Origin: Halobacteriovoraceae bacterium | Lineage (GTDB): Bacteria > Bdellovibrionota > Bacteriovoracia > Bacteriovoracales > Bacteriovoracaceae | DNA: 43,018 nucleotides | Reading direction: 5' to 3' | Assembly: GCA_002706205.1 (NCBI GenBank) | Contig: PAKC01000015.1 | Span: 1-43,018 of the forward strand | Position numbers and translations under genes: made by a program | Notes under the pieces: generated by a model | Databases searched by the model: none | What the model was told of the DNA's origin: nothing | Seen by the model: the letters and a program-made list of their open reading frames with translations, nothing else | Shown: positions 4,376 through 11,244 of the stretch, one piece after another | Layout of the letters: each line of letters begins with the position of its first letter | Numbering within the stretch: position 1 is the first letter of the stretch

Positions 4376-4613
4376 ATAAATAATCTACTTGAACTTCTTT
4401 TTCTGTCATAAGGAATTCTTTAACTGATAAAGAACAGCTTAGTATATTAGTATTGACAACGCATTTTTGACAAATTTGTTCTCCCCGACAGCTTGAGGCA
4501 ATGGGAAAATTCTTTTTTAAGAGAAAATTTAATAAGCTTAGATTGAATTCATCTGGTCTTATTAGAACTTGTGAACTTGTTTGTGAGCTTCTCCCAGTTA
4601 TTTTGAGATACAC
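4374..4613 (-). CDS. very short [2Fe-2S] ferredoxin-like protein
   Basis: A 79-residue protein with the adrenodoxin-type cysteine spacing: C42-x5-C48-x2-C51 in SSCRGEQICQKC, and a fourth cysteine C60 in NILSC. In ordinary [2Fe-2S] ferredoxins the fourth cysteine lies some 30 or more residues after the third; here only eight intervene, as if the variable segment between the cluster loop and the last ligand were missing. The C-terminus VQVDYL resembles the usual final strand. The start is GTG at 4613 with AAGGTG upstream, overlapping the preceding lipoprotein gene by 16 bases. An electron-transfer role is inferred from the cysteines alone; the partner is unknown. Confidence 0.7.
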   Translation of the reverse strand: MYLKITGRSSQTSSQVLIRPDEFNLSLLNFLLKKNFPIASSCRGEQICQKCVVNTNILSCSLSVKEFLMTEKEVQVDYL

Positions 4614-5884
4614 GTTAAGGCACCTTGACGTCTTTCATCGAGCAAAAAACTTGGATTTTTACTATCGTCGTAGTAGGCCCAAATTTTTCCTAGGCGTTTA
4701 GCATTATAAATAGGGATATTCAGCTTTAATAATTCTTCTAGCTGTTCTTTTGAACTACGTCGAGATTCAATAACCAATCTGACAGGGTTTTGTAAAAATT
4801 GATGACGAGAAAACTTAAGCAATGAATCCAGCTCTTTAACACTTTTAGTCTGATTGAGTCCGTACTGATTGAGATGAAATATATGCTGTCCAGGGTCTCG
4901 ACTTTGAGTAGAGAATAACCATAAAGGAGAGCTCGTATGAAATTTGTTTTTAAAAAGACATATCGCACTTGATCTTACATGGGACTTCCCAGAAAAAAGA
5001 AAGCTATTTTTTATCGTTTGACCTAAATCAATTTCCTGAGAACTCATGGCCATAAAAACATTTTTTTTATCTTTAAGACCAAAAATATGGGATTCAATTT
5101 CATTTTTATGAATTAAAAAATTTGATTCCTTGTAAAGATTCATATCAAAATTACAGTAAGGTGTAAGACTCCCTTGCGTTTTATACTCAAAAAGAAAACT
5201 ATTGCGAGAGTACTGTGATGCTTTTTTTGTTTTTAAATAAAGAGAAACAATCTTTCTAAAATTAATCTTAGGTAAACTTTCATTTTCTTGAAGGGTTTCA
5301 TCACCTCTGAAAAATGTATTTTTAAGTTGTAGGTTTTGAGCAATTTTCTTTTTATTTTTCAATAAAAAAATCTCTAACTCTTTTGAAACAAGAAAAGGAT
5401 AGTGATAGTTTTGGTCAATCATTTTTGCCAAATCAAATAAAGAATATCGACTTTTATGCTCTTTTAATAATTGATCTAAGAGTTTTAAATAAGGAAAAAG
5501 ATTTTTTTCTTTAGAAAAAGAGTGATAATACTTTTCTTTTTTTATTTTTAGTAAAATTTGTAATTTAGCTGTTGGAGAGCTTAGGTCAGGTCTTAAGTTC
5601 ATTTGTATCAAAGACCATAAAACTGCTTTATCAATGAAGCGAAAACGTTTTGTTTTATTTAATTTTTCATAAAAAGTATGAAAAGTTTCTTGAGAATTTC
5701 TTTCTGGTGATAGCAATATTTGAGATGAAGGTTTTTTACATGTTGTTTGCTTTGTGACAGGCAAAGGGACGACATTGTTTTCTTCTAGTATATCTCCATT
5801 AAAATTATCAATAAATAATGAACAGGAAGTGATAGAAAATAAAAAGCTAATGAGAATTAATTTAATCATGAATAATGTCTGCAT
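4598..5884 (-). CDS. predicted lipoprotein of unknown function
   Basis: I do not recognise the family. The leader has the form MIKLILISFLFSITSC, a canonical lipoprotein signal with the cysteine following SITS. This favours the second ATG at 5869 over the one at 5884; neither has a clear Shine-Dalgarno. The roughly 400-residue mature part is rich in Lys, Leu, Phe and Ser, with no repeat or catalytic motif that I can name. It is the middle gene of a tight minus-strand operon: it overlaps the upstream 114-residue gene by 8-23 bases and the downstream ferredoxin gene by 16. Coupling with a redox protein is a hint, not proof, of shared function. Confidence 0.7.
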   Translation of the reverse strand: MQTLFMIKLILISFLFSITSCSLFIDNFNGDILEENNVVPLPVTKQTTCKKPSSQILLSPERNSQETFHTFYEKLNKTKRFRFIDKAVLWSLIQMNLRPDLSSPTAKLQILLKIKKEKYYHSFSKEKNLFPYLKLLDQLLKEHKSRYSLFDLAKMIDQNYHYPFLVSKELEIFLLKNKKKIAQNLQLKNTFFRGDETLQENESLPKINFRKIVSLYLKTKKASQYSRNSFLFEYKTQGSLTPYCNFDMNLYKESNFLIHKNEIESHIFGLKDKKNVFMAMSSQEIDLGQTIKNSFLFSGKSHVRSSAICLFKNKFHTSSPLWLFSTQSRDPGQHIFHLNQYGLNQTKSVKELDSLLKFSRHQFLQNPVRLVIESRRSSKEQLEELLKLNIPIYNAKRLGKIWAYYDDSKNPSFLLDERRQGALTCISK

Positions 5885-6206: not shown

Positions 6207-6406
6207 TATGATACTCCTTTATACATCTGTATTTTTTCTTTCAGTTTAGCAAAGAATTAAGGATTATGTCATTGTAAAGTCTTTATTTGATTAAATATTC
6301 TTACATTAAACACAATTTATATGAATCGCCGAGCATGAGCATCAACAAATGGGAAGGAAATCTTTACCTCATAAAAATAATACTTTTTTTAAACTCAATG
6401 TCTGGT

Positions 6407-6412
6407 TATAAT
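6407..6412 (+). promoter_or_regulatory. -10 box of the candidate small RNA
   Basis: A perfect TATAAT at 6407-6412 places a start near 6418-6420, immediately before the first hairpin of the candidate RNA. The -35 region is only a T-rich stretch (around 6384-6389), so an activator may be required, as is usual for CsrB/RsmZ-type genes. Confidence 0.5.
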
Positions 6413-6418
6413 AAAAGT

Positions 6419-6498
6419 GTGGATGACAGGAAGTTATCCGAGATAGGCAAGGATGCCGAAAAGAAGAAGGGGGGTCAGTGCAGGAGGCCCCCTTTTTT
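6419..6498 (+). ncRNA. candidate CsrA-titrating small RNA (CsrB/RsmYZ-like)
   Basis: About 80 bases with three successive hairpins. Hairpin 1 is GGATGAC-AGGAA-GTTATCC (6421-6439). Hairpin 2 is GGC-AAGGAT-GCC (6446-6457), whose CAAGGATG core matches the CsrA/RsmA high-affinity consensus CARGGAUG exactly. Hairpin 3 is the terminator stem (6470-6492), and its loop ends in AGGA. GGA motifs exposed in loops are the hallmark of RNAs that sequester CsrA. A perfect -10 lies just upstream and a U-tract ends the transcript. No plausible protein is encoded. It is orphan, between the minus-strand operon ending upstream and the SIS gene downstream. The structure was read by eye, and a CsrA gene is not in the window. 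Confidence 0.55.
6470..6498 (+). terminator. rho-independent terminator of the candidate small RNA
   Basis: GGGGGTC at 6470-6476 pairs with GGCCCCC at 6486-6492 (one G-T pair) around a nine-base loop, followed by six T. No protein gene lies upstream on the plus strand within 1.8 kb, so the terminator itself argues for an independent short transcript. Confidence 0.85.
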
Positions 6499-6586: not shown

Positions 6587-8089
6587 ATGAAACTATCTAA
6601 AAAAGAATTTTTAAAACATCGTAGACAGTTTGGTCTAGGGCATTTGACGACGGAGTCTTTTCATCCCTTGTCAAAAGATCTGTCTGATATTGTTAAAGAA
6701 GATATAGAGCAAGCAATTGAAGTTCTCACTCAAATTGACACTCAAGCTTTAACATTACTCAAGGATAAATACTTTGAAGTTTTTAAACTTCAACAGCAAG
6801 TTCAAGCAGTTCTGAAAGAAGGGCATAAGGTTTTTCTTTGCGGCTGTGGAGCTACAGGACGTTTGGCCCTCAGTTTAGAGCGTTTATATAGAGATTTTTT
6901 TCAAAGTTCTCAGGTCTGTGCTTTTATGGCAGGGGGAGATTATGCCCTTATTAAGTCGGTGGAGAGTTTTGAAGATAGTTTTGAATATGGAAAAAGACAA
7001 CTTAAAGAATTAGGATTTTCAAAAAATGACCTTCTTATTAGTATTACCGAAGGTGGGGAAACTAGTTTTGTGATTGGGGCAGCGGAGTTTGCTGCCGATT
7101 ATTCACAAGAGCCGCCTTTTTTTCTTTATTGTAATCCAGACACTGAATTATCTTCGATTAATAGATCACAAAGAATTTTAAAAAATAATAAGATAAAAAA
7201 GATAAATTTAAGTGTCGGACCAATGGCAATATCTGGTAGTACTCGAATGCAAGCAACTACTGTGCAAATGATTGCTACTGGTTTTAGCCTTTTTTATCAA
7301 CACGTTAATCTTGAGGCATTTCAAAAAGCCTTTGTTCAATTTATCGAGCTCTTAGAACACAGCTCTTTTCATTTTATCAAAGACTTTATTAGGCACGAGT
7401 ATGCAGTCTATCAAAAAAATGAGATTGTGACCTATAGAAGCGATGAAAAAATTGCCATGGCCATTTTAACAGATACAACGGAAAGATCCCCCACATTTAA
7501 CTTGGTAGGCTTTGAGAGAGATAAAACTGATGAGCCCTCTTTAGTCTATTTGGCCGTCAAGGATGAGCAGGATCCTTTAAAGGCTTGGCAGAGACTTTTA
7601 GGTCGAAAACCGAGATGTCTTGATTGGCAGATTCCTGAAAGAATTAGTCTTAAGGATTTGTACCAGTTTGATATTTCTGAAAAAACAATTTTAAGAAGAA
7701 ATGAAATTAGAGAGAATCATGTTTTCGATATTTATCTAGAAAATGGTTTTCTTCTTTTTATGTTTGGAGACTTACAGAGAAGAATTAAAATACCCCAAGA
7801 AGCTGATCTGTTTTTTATCCATTTGTATTTGAAGTTGATTCTTAATATTCATTCAACTTTGCTTATGGGACTTTTGGAAAGATATCAAGGGAATATGATG
7901 ACTTATGTTTCTCCAAGTAATTTTAAATTAATCGATCGTTGTTTTCGTTATACGAAGGAAATTCTTAAGGGGCAAAGTATACATATTTCCGATGATGATT
8001 TAATCGATGAGATTTTTAAAAGAGTAGCGATTAAGAAAAACTCTATTGTTCTTGATGTTCTTAATAGCGTTAAATCACAAGAGCGTTGA
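6587..8089 (+). CDS. SIS-domain protein related to MurQ etherase / GCKR
   Basis: The N-terminal 250 residues follow the N-acetylmuramic acid 6-phosphate etherase pattern. LTTESFHP is near the start, FLCGCGATGRLAL replaces the usual YVGAGTSGRLG, then come MAGGDYAL, ITEGGETSFVIGAAEFA and GPMAISGSTRMQATTVQM. MurQ itself is about 300 residues; this protein has 500, with a second half whose features I cannot resolve, so it is closer in size to the two-SIS glucokinase regulatory protein family. MurQ cleaves the lactyl ether of MurNAc-6-phosphate during wall recycling. Several motif positions are altered, so a sugar-phosphate binding or regulatory role is equally possible. ATG at 6587 is preceded by AAGGAAG. 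Confidence 0.75.
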   Translation: MKLSKKEFLKHRRQFGLGHLTTESFHPLSKDLSDIVKEDIEQAIEVLTQIDTQALTLLKDKYFEVFKLQQQVQAVLKEGHKVFLCGCGATGRLALSLERLYRDFFQSSQVCAFMAGGDYALIKSVESFEDSFEYGKRQLKELGFSKNDLLISITEGGETSFVIGAAEFAADYSQEPPFFLYCNPDTELSSINRSQRILKNNKIKKINLSVGPMAISGSTRMQATTVQMIATGFSLFYQHVNLEAFQKAFVQFIELLEHSSFHFIKDFIRHEYAVYQKNEIVTYRSDEKIAMAILTDTTERSPTFNLVGFERDKTDEPSLVYLAVKDEQDPLKAWQRLLGRKPRCLDWQIPERISLKDLYQFDISEKTILRRNEIRENHVFDIYLENGFLLFMFGDLQRRIKIPQEADLFFIHLYLKLILNIHSTLLMGLLERYQGNMMTYVSPSNFKLIDRCFRYTKEILKGQSIHISDDDLIDEIFKRVAIKKNSIVLDVLNSVKSQER

Positions 8090-8910: not shown

Positions 8911-11244
8911 ATGCAAAAAAAGTATAATATAGTGATTTGTCAGTTAGGCTCTCCCAAAACTTCTAAAACTTCAGATGTGAGAAGTTATTTAAGAGAGTTT
9001 CTTAGTGACCCTCGAGTTATTGATGTTTCAAGGGGATTATGGTTTTTTATATTAAATTTATTTATTTTGCCCTTTAGACCTAAAAAAAGTGCTGAGGCAT
9101 ATAAGCGTATTGAGTTTTGTGGAATGTTTCCCCTTATTGAACTTACCAAAGGGTTTTGCCGCCAATTAAGCGGATTAATGTCTTCTGAGTATAGAATATT
9201 GCCTTCTTTTTTATTATCTCAACCTAGACTGACTGAGGTTTTAAATAAGAGTGAAGAGTTTTACGTTTTTCCGCAATTTCCTCAGTTTTCAGATACAACA
9301 ACATCTTCGGTCATTGATAAAATCAAAGAAGTTTCTCCTCATTATGAACAAGAAGGTAAGATCCACATTCTTAAAGATTACCATCGTTTTCGTGGTTTTA
9401 TAGATTTGTCTGTTGAGCAGATAAAAAAACAACTAGAAAAATATCCCGTAGAGGATCTCGTTATTTCTTTTCACGGAATTCCTGTTCGCTACGTTACTGA
9501 AAAAAAAGATATTTACTACCAACATTGTTGTGAAACATTTACTCTTTTAAAGCAACAGTTAAATCTTAGTCATGTCAGATTACATATGAGCTTTCAAAGT
9601 CGACTAGGCTCTGAAGAGTGGTTATCACCCTATACAGATGAATATGTTGTTAATTTAGTAAAAACTGGGACAAAGTCGGTCGGAGTTTATTGTCCCAGCT
9701 TTGTCGTAGATTGTTTAGAAACAACAGATGAAATAGGAAATGAGTTACGAGAAGAAGTAGAGGAACATGGTGGAGAACTAGTCTTTATTCCTTGTTTAAA
9801 TGTAACTCCTAAATGGGTAAAAAGTTATGCTAAGTTGATAGAAGCTTTTTGTTCAGAAGGACAGCAAGGAGCTGAAAATTTGTTTTATACTGTTCCAGCT
9901 GATAAATTAAAGGAAAATATGCCAGAATTAACTTCAAAATCTACGCCTATGACTCCACAAGCTAAAAGAACAATTAAAATTGTTTTTTTGACTTTATTTT
10001 TGGATTTAATCGGTTTTTCGATCATTTTTCCTATGTTTCCAGCATTGGCAAAACATTATCTTGAAATTGACCCTGATAATTATTTTTTAAAACTCATTTT
10101 TGGCTCGATTGCTAGTTTCACCCAGGCAAGTGGTGCGGATATGAGCTCAATTGTTCTTTTTGGGGGGGCCTTGGGTGCCCTTTATTCACTTTTACAATTT
10201 TTTGCAGCTCCTTTATGGGGAGGGCTATCGGATCGCTTTGGAAGAAAACCTATTCTTTTGATTTCTCTCTTTGGGCTATTTATGAGTTATTTTTTGTGGG
10301 TATTTGCCGGCTCTTTTACTCTTTTAATTTTGGCCCGTTTTATAGGGGGAATTATGGGGGGAAATATATCCACGGCCACAGCGGCCATTGCCGATGTTAC
10401 TGATGAGTCAAATCGCTCTAAAGGCATGGCGTTTGTGGGCATTGCATTTGCTTTAGGTTTTATTGTAGGCCCTGCATTAGGAGGATTGTTAACAATTATT
10501 AATCCTGTAGAGCACTTTCCAAGTTTAGTTGTTTATGGACTGAACCCTTTTTCTTACCCAGCTTTACTAGCTGCAGTTTTAAGTTTGGTTAATATTTTTC
10601 TACTCTTTTTTAAATTCGAAGAGACTTTGAAAAAAGCTGATCAATCCCAAACAACTAGAAGTTTTAATGTCTTTAAAATCTTAGCTCCTTTAAAGAATAA
10701 AAATGTAAATTTAACGAACTATAGTTATTTTCTTTTTATTAGTGCCTTTAGTGGAATGGAATTTACTTTGACATTTTTAGCAGTTGAAAGGCTTGGTTAT
10801 TCTTCTTTAGATAACGCTTATATGTTTATTTTTATAGGCTTTATTTTAGCTTTTGTTCAAGGGGGATTTGTACGCAGAAAGGCTCACCAAATTGGTGAGA
10901 AAAAAGTTGCTTTATTAGGTCTGGCCCTTATCATTCCCGGTCTTTTGATTATTTCATTTGCTTATCAAGCTTGGGTTTTATATTTTGGTCTCTTCTTCTT
11001 AGCCTGTGGTTCTGCTATGGCGATACCAACTCTGACAGCTTTGGTTTCCTTATTTACTGTGGCAAGTGAACAAGGGAAAAATTTAGGTATTTTTCGCTCA
11101 TTAGGTGCCTTGGGAAGAATTGTCGGTCCCATCGTTGCCAGTTTAATCTATTGGAGATCTGGAGCGTTATATCCTTATTTATTTGGTGCTGTGTTTTTAT
11201 TGATACCTATTTTCATTTTAAAGCAAGTAAAACAACGGTCTTAA
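8911..11244 (+). CDS. hemH: ferrochelatase fused to an MFS transporter
   Basis: One uninterrupted 777-codon frame joins two normally separate proteins. Residues 1-320 are ferrochelatase, which inserts iron into protoporphyrin IX: VRSYLREFLSDPRVID (23-38), FPQFSDTTTSS, the catalytic histidine in SFHGIP (H188), FQSRLGSEEWLSPYTDE, and CPSFVVDCLETTDEIG with the conserved Glu (E270). Residues 353-777 are a 12-helix major facilitator of the drug:H+ antiporter type, with motif A as GGLSDRFGRKP and GFIVGPALGG later. A Ser/Thr/Pro linker lies between. An in-frame ATG at 9919 (codon 337) has AAAGGA just upstream and could also yield the transporter alone at about 441 residues. Heme or porphyrin transport coupled to synthesis is inference. 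No frameshift is seen. Confidence 0.9.
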   Translation: MQKKYNIVICQLGSPKTSKTSDVRSYLREFLSDPRVIDVSRGLWFFILNLFILPFRPKKSAEAYKRIEFCGMFPLIELTKGFCRQLSGLMSSEYRILPSFLLSQPRLTEVLNKSEEFYVFPQFPQFSDTTTSSVIDKIKEVSPHYEQEGKIHILKDYHRFRGFIDLSVEQIKKQLEKYPVEDLVISFHGIPVRYVTEKKDIYYQHCCETFTLLKQQLNLSHVRLHMSFQSRLGSEEWLSPYTDEYVVNLVKTGTKSVGVYCPSFVVDCLETTDEIGNELREEVEEHGGELVFIPCLNVTPKWVKSYAKLIEAFCSEGQQGAENLFYTVPADKLKENMPELTSKSTPMTPQAKRTIKIVFLTLFLDLIGFSIIFPMFPALAKHYLEIDPDNYFLKLIFGSIASFTQASGADMSSIVLFGGALGALYSLLQFFAAPLWGGLSDRFGRKPILLISLFGLFMSYFLWVFAGSFTLLILARFIGGIMGGNISTATAAIADVTDESNRSKGMAFVGIAFALGFIVGPALGGLLTIINPVEHFPSLVVYGLNPFSYPALLAAVLSLVNIFLLFFKFEETLKKADQSQTTRSFNVFKILAPLKNKNVNLTNYSYFLFISAFSGMEFTLTFLAVERLGYSSLDNAYMFIFIGFILAFVQGGFVRRKAHQIGEKKVALLGLALIIPGLLIISFAYQAWVLYFGLFFLACGSAMAIPTLTALVSLFTVASEQGKNLGIFRSLGALGRIVGPIVASLIYWRSGALYPYLFGAVFLLIPIFILKQVKQRS

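Follow-up and report, generated by a model that had tools for sequence, protein, structure and literature searches.

A predicted family-wide small RNA of the Bacteriovoracaceae with two conserved GGA loops as a probable minimal CsrA decoy

Within the 43,018 nucleotides of Halobacteriovoraceae DNA analysed here (contig PAKC01000015.1; hereafter the window), one spacer holds a promoter-like box followed by hairpins that expose GGA in their loops. A preliminary description, made from the letters of the window, proposed that this spacer encodes a small RNA that sequesters CsrA. Is it a gene, and would its product act on CsrA? Comparison with related genomes supports the proposal in that csrA is present, the GGA loops are conserved and their stems change in a compensatory manner. 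We consider it probable that positions 6419-6498 form a free-standing small RNA (sRNA) of about 80 nt whose role is that of a minimal decoy for CsrA (Table 1).

Table 1. Positions of the predicted RNA, its neighbours and a Spirochaetes element discussed in the text
Feature	Position	Strand	Remark
up2, uncharacterised 428-aa protein, lipoprotein-like N-terminus	4598-5884	-	same strand as up1
up1, uncharacterised small protein of about 110 aa	5862-6206	-	divergent, upstream
Upstream element GGAAATCTTTACC, probable activator site	6356-6368	+	38 nt 5' of the -10 box
-10 box TATAAT	6407-6412	+	read from the window sequence
Expected transcription start	near 6419	+	from the position of the -10 box
Predicted non-coding RNA, about 80 nt	6419-6498	+	fold z -3.73; match to model R1; ORFs nearly absent
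Hairpin 1, GGATGAC-AGGAA-GTTATCC	6421-6439	+	7-bp stem, loop AGGAA
Predicted CsrA site ACAGGAAGU in hairpin 1	GGA 6429-6431	+	loop GGA and stem covariation in members
Hairpin 2, GGCA-AGGA-TGCC (RNA: GGCA-AGGA-UGCC)	6446-6457	+	short stem, loop AGGA
Predicted CsrA site CAAGGAUG in hairpin 2	GGA 6451-6453	+	loop GGA kept; all stem cells paired
Purine linker	between hairpin 2 and terminator	+	window sequence
Intrinsic terminator hairpin, loop ...GCAGGA..., U6 tail	about 6467-6498	+	stem covariation
AGGA in terminator loop	6482-6485	+	window sequence
T6 run of terminator	6493-6498	+	window sequence
SIS-domain protein gene, downstream	6587-8089	+	not part of the sRNA unit
Spirochaetes element, copy 1	L113: 4287-4368	+	spacer
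Spirochaetes element, copy 2	L099: 3784-3854	-	spacer
Spirochaetes element, copy 3	L245		spacer
Spirochaetes element, copy 4	L246		spacer

The predicted fold has a free energy of -34.0 kcal/mol, equalled by none of 200 shuffled sequences, and its shape agrees with that read from the sequence. The TATAAT named in the preliminary description is present, its first hairpin does carry AC-AGGAA-GT at the top of the 7-bp stem, and the region of its second hairpin, CAAGGATG, is an exact CARGGAUG. It had counted three hairpins followed by a terminator; there are three GGA loops in all, but they belong to two hairpins and the terminator hairpin itself. We folded the 43 kb in 80-nt windows, moved in steps of 20 nt along both strands; only one of the 4294, at the sRNA locus, showed three GGA hairpin loops. 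The covariance model described below (R1) matches positions 6416-6497 with an E-value of 1.5e-11.

A simple consensus scan of the window flagged neither a promoter nor a terminator on the + strand at this locus, which would suit the view that the hairpins are chance structures in an untranscribed spacer. We attribute the omission to a weak -35 region and a terminator loop of 9 nt, and accept both signals because the -10 box and the terminator stem are conserved in comparison: of 99 members, 71 have TATAAT as the -10 box and 16 have TATACT. Further upstream, the element in Table 1 has a family consensus, GGNAANNNTTNCC, that is an imperfect palindrome. Its strict form occurs in 85 of 99 upstream regions, lying 36-37 nt before the -10 box in 67 of the 85, and in only 7 of 2000 shuffled upstream sequences. 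Since the weak -35 region is accompanied by an element fixed in position, the arrangement suggests an activator-driven promoter. In Gammaproteobacteria-type Csr systems one might look to the UvrY/GacA box, whose consensus is TGTAAG-N6-CTTACA; none of 98 upstream regions contains it within two mismatches, and 10 do at three. The conserved element is thus not a UvrY/GacA box.

How widely is the RNA distributed? A blastn search with the window sRNA matched about twenty relatives, and R1 was built from twelve of them. The search of related genomes that had been proposed as a check found matches to the model at E ≤ 7e-5 in 115 of 129 Bacteriovoracaceae genomes, as a rule in a single copy each; a raw tally of 124/129 includes nine genomes with weak matches only. 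The neighbouring gene up1 was likewise not found in the 14 family genomes lacking a strong match, in a single-sequence search that divergent copies can escape, and most of these absences are therefore probably assembly gaps. Second matches within the family (L188 at 6251, and L234) had little beyond the terminator in common with the sRNA and were rejected.

Where a contig with a true match carries a name, the label is in most cases Bacteriovoracaceae, Bacteriovorax or Halobacteriovorax. In a sample of 241 Bdellovibrionota genomes, 72 of them in the family, no convincing match was found among the 169 outside it, where only two matches reached E 3e-4. These two (G171, G238) combine a GC-rich terminator with a chance GCAAGAUGCC or GCAGGAUGCC and have no matching hairpin 1, and we regard them as fortuitous. 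Pattern-scan matches in Enterobacterial, Rubrivivax and most other sequences failed the covariance model and were also taken as chance. As csrA was found in 224 of the 241 genomes, the sRNA is a trait of the family and not of csrA carriers generally; by these searches, it is a feature of the Bacteriovoracaceae.

A separate element was seen in an uncultured Spirochaetes MAG (CALMRZ01), where four spacer copies have two CAGGAWG-type hairpins each (e.g. AAACAGGATGTTT, GCCGGCAGGATGCCG). In one copy a compensatory change gives GCGACAGGATGTCGC, and the most divergent copy has AAACTGGATGTCT and TGCAGGATGCC. The element may be a repeat family or else a multi-copy Csr-like RNA of independent origin.

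Conservation within the family was counted in 100 member sequences. That the GGA loops should recur in orthologous intergenic regions, as the preliminary description expected, was confirmed: loop 1 keeps its GGA in 99 members and loop 2 in 90, on stems with compensatory changes. In the ten members whose loop 2 has lost GGA (GGCAAGAUGCC, GGCACGAUGCC), mostly of one genus, a single full site remains; part of one genus has AAGA or ACGA in its place. The most frequent loop texts are ACAGGAUG, ACAGGAAG and GGCAGGAUGCC, and the distance from GGA to GGA is 20-25 nt in nearly all members. In the stems, 95.8% of cells are paired and double changes occur at 14 of 19 pairs; 251 double-changed cells were observed versus 71 ± 8 in shuffles, in an alignment that was fitted to the structure and so is biased in favour of covariation. 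Shifting the pairing partners abolishes the signal. The stem of hairpin 1 covaries across members. Hairpin 2, paired in 100% of cells, is near-invariant in close relatives, and in others GGC/GCC is replaced by GAC/GUC, AGC/GCU or AAC/GUU. The terminator stem likewise covaries, two of its pairs showing 35-37 double changes. Chance hairpins are opposed by the conservation of the unit, its covariation, its copy number and the uniqueness of the locus among the folded windows, and the matches of the model across the family and the compensatory stem changes refute that reading; we give it next to no probability.

A different possibility is that the element serves as the leader or attenuator of the downstream gene, which in the window begins 88 nt further on and is read from the same strand. 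This SIS-domain gene follows the sRNA in only 16 of 100 loci, versus 81 for up1 and 88 for up2, both divergent upstream. The terminator stem is moreover kept throughout by covariation. We reject a leader on synteny; it is largely refuted and very improbable. Because the downstream gene varies, the divergent upstream genes are kept and ORFs are nearly absent (a closed ORF of at least 15 codons in only 2 of 98 members), the locus is best read as a free-standing non-coding gene, a unit with its own promoter and terminator by the sequence alone, given its conserved -10 box, its terminator and its variable downstream gene. As for the neighbours, up1 bears the motif KTFTYYIPAPPxRKxGYREKEFDK and belongs to no family in Pfam or NCBIfam. 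Its predicted fold is a modest model (pLDDT 81, pTM 0.63) with a beta-alpha-beta-beta core, for which a structure search gave no significant relative. A plasmid search gave no match. Elsewhere in the window (8911-11244, + strand), a ferrochelatase domain and a major-facilitator transporter domain are encoded together in one ORF.

Which protein would read the loops? The CsrB repeat is CAGGA(U/A/C)G and the consensus from SELEX of CsrA sites is RUACARGGAUGU (PMC7652899). Loop 1 (ACAGGAUGU/ACAGGAAGU) and loop 2 (CAGGAUG) match the former, and both match the core of the latter, so that at least two hairpin-loop GGAs on covarying stems fit the CsrA site consensus. Some other RNA-binding protein or an RNase might use the same hairpins, as the degeneration of loop 2 in one genus could indicate; the loop motif is nevertheless that of CsrA and CsrB letter for letter, and CsrA, its known reader, is encoded in the genome, which makes such an alternative improbable. 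CsrA as the reader is also consistent with the spacing of the loops. Dual-site bridging by CsrA spans 10-63 nt with an optimum above 18 nt (PMC7652899), and the flaA leader of C. jejuni, which titrates CsrA, has two GGA loops 21 nt apart (PMC4894983). Because the 20-25 nt between the GGAs falls inside this range and near the flaA spacing, it would suit bridging by one dimer. Hairpin 1, with its 7-bp stem and mostly pentaloops across members, is unlike the SELEX winners, which favoured stems of at most 4 pairs and hexaloops (PMC7652899). A decoy with only two conserved sites has fewer than the well-studied decoys, and strong titration would need high abundance.

The AGGA that the preliminary description saw in the terminator loop is present in the window, and as a third site it did not hold up: GCAGG (window 6480-6484) is found in nearly all members, GGA in only about a quarter, and the third GGA is by this comparison not a conserved site. 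CsrA would not account for a GCAGG kept without GGA. The main rival to a decoy is a dual-function or antisense RNA that CsrA stabilises or delivers and whose main output is pairing of the terminator-loop (U)GCAGG with mRNAs. This would explain why GCAGG is kept, flanked by a covarying stem, where GGA is not. Other sRNAs both bind CsrA and base-pair with mRNAs. B. subtilis CsrA is known as a helper of sRNA-mRNA pairing (PMC7652899). The conserved stretch for pairing is only about 5-8 nt within a terminator loop, and we judge this rival unlikely, if less so than the other alternatives.

A CsrA decoy presupposes a CsrA able to bind RNA. The window genome has one csrA (E 2.9e-26), as the preliminary description required, directly before fliW, and the pair stands after genes of flgK/flgL type, named by sequence and place. 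Across the family, csrA occurs in 119 of the 129 genomes, and the count for fliW is also 119. The co-occurrence of csrA and the sRNA is weak evidence, because csrA is near-universal in the phylum. R44, an RNA-binding residue, is kept in the CsrA of the window genome and of five others examined, as are N55 and a C-terminal extension. The closest solved relative is chain D of 5dmb, which we take to be the Geobacillus CsrA-FliW complex, with an alignment of nearly full length through the C-terminal extension. N55 and the C-terminal extension are the reported FliW-binding features of CsrA (PMC13407953), and judged from the genes and proteins themselves, a FliW-type CsrA is encoded beside fliW. Four flagellin leaders of the window genome (L236, L237, L238, L239) contain at least two GGA each, one at the ribosome site, spaced 17-21 nt apart in three of the four; in L238, GTATCT-GGA-AGATAC lies 21 nt before the ribosome-site GGA. 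These leaders are possible CsrA targets, with weak support since Shine-Dalgarno sequences hold GGA anyway.

The known CsrA decoy sRNAs come mainly from Gammaproteobacteria, a group without FliW. Like CsrB/CsrC and RsmX/Y/Z, the RNA described here is a free-standing sRNA with GGA in its loops, the repeat CAGGA(U/A/C)G and its own terminator. Unlike them, it is about 80 nt long with two conserved sites, whereas CsrB binds some 18 CsrA subunits (PMC7652899); it has another conserved upstream element in place of the UvrY/GacA box; and it has no Rfam-level similarity to them, Rfam scans giving no match at the gathering score and none to CsrB, CsrC, RsmX, RsmY or RsmZ even up to E 5. It would thus work like CsrB or RsmY/Z from outside those sequence families. 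It also co-occurs with fliW, in contrast to gammaproteobacterial decoys, fliW being absent from Gammaproteobacteria (PMC7652899). The C. jejuni flaA leader resembles it in its two GGA loops, its similar spacing and its FliW-bearing host, and differs in being part of an mRNA, the Bacteriovoracaceae element being a separate non-coding gene. The genomic setting recalls the CsrA-FliW partner switching of B. subtilis, C. jejuni and Geobacter, with csrA-fliW beside flgK/flgL-type genes, N55 and the C-terminal extension, to which the Bacteriovoracaceae would add an RNA antagonist. In the same phylum, which includes predators, attack-phase sRNAs and merRNA have been reported from Bdellovibrio bacteriovorus, none described as a CsrA ligand, in a study that does not mention CsrA (PMC3627812); unlike these, the present RNA has no convincing match outside its family. 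That the preliminary description knew of no example in this lineage agrees with Rfam and with the open-access literature, in which we found no CsrA-linked sRNA for Bdellovibrio, Bacteriovorax or Halobacteriovorax.

How might such an RNA work? We infer that it is expressed, is bound by CsrA and titrates it, under an activator and with a link to motility or predation; the specific role in predation offered earlier is unsupported speculation. An upstream activator would switch the gene on and let the RNA accumulate, a single CsrA dimer would hold the two loops with its two RNA-binding sites, and the accumulated RNA would draw CsrA away from mRNA leaders by titration. Alongside the protein inhibitor FliW, which senses flagellin export, CsrA would then receive a second input, made of RNA and driven by a signal.

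FliW anticorrelates with the CsrB/C sRNAs (PMC4894983) and with BarA-UvrY, the activators of those sRNAs (PMC7652899), and whether FliW and sRNAs act jointly on CsrA in any species was a question posed by a 2020 review (PMC7652899). The presence of the sRNA and FliW in the same genomes bears on this question. On balance, we lean towards the view that this is the first family of CsrA-decoy sRNAs in a FliW lineage, with two antagonists, an RNA and a protein, on one CsrA, an activator of its own and an origin independent of CsrB and RsmY/Z. If true, this would suggest that decoy sRNAs have arisen repeatedly in evolution and need hold no more than one dimer's worth of sites, and in the Bacteriovoracaceae, a family that includes bacteria-hunting bacteria, such an RNA may help to switch between swimming and growth.
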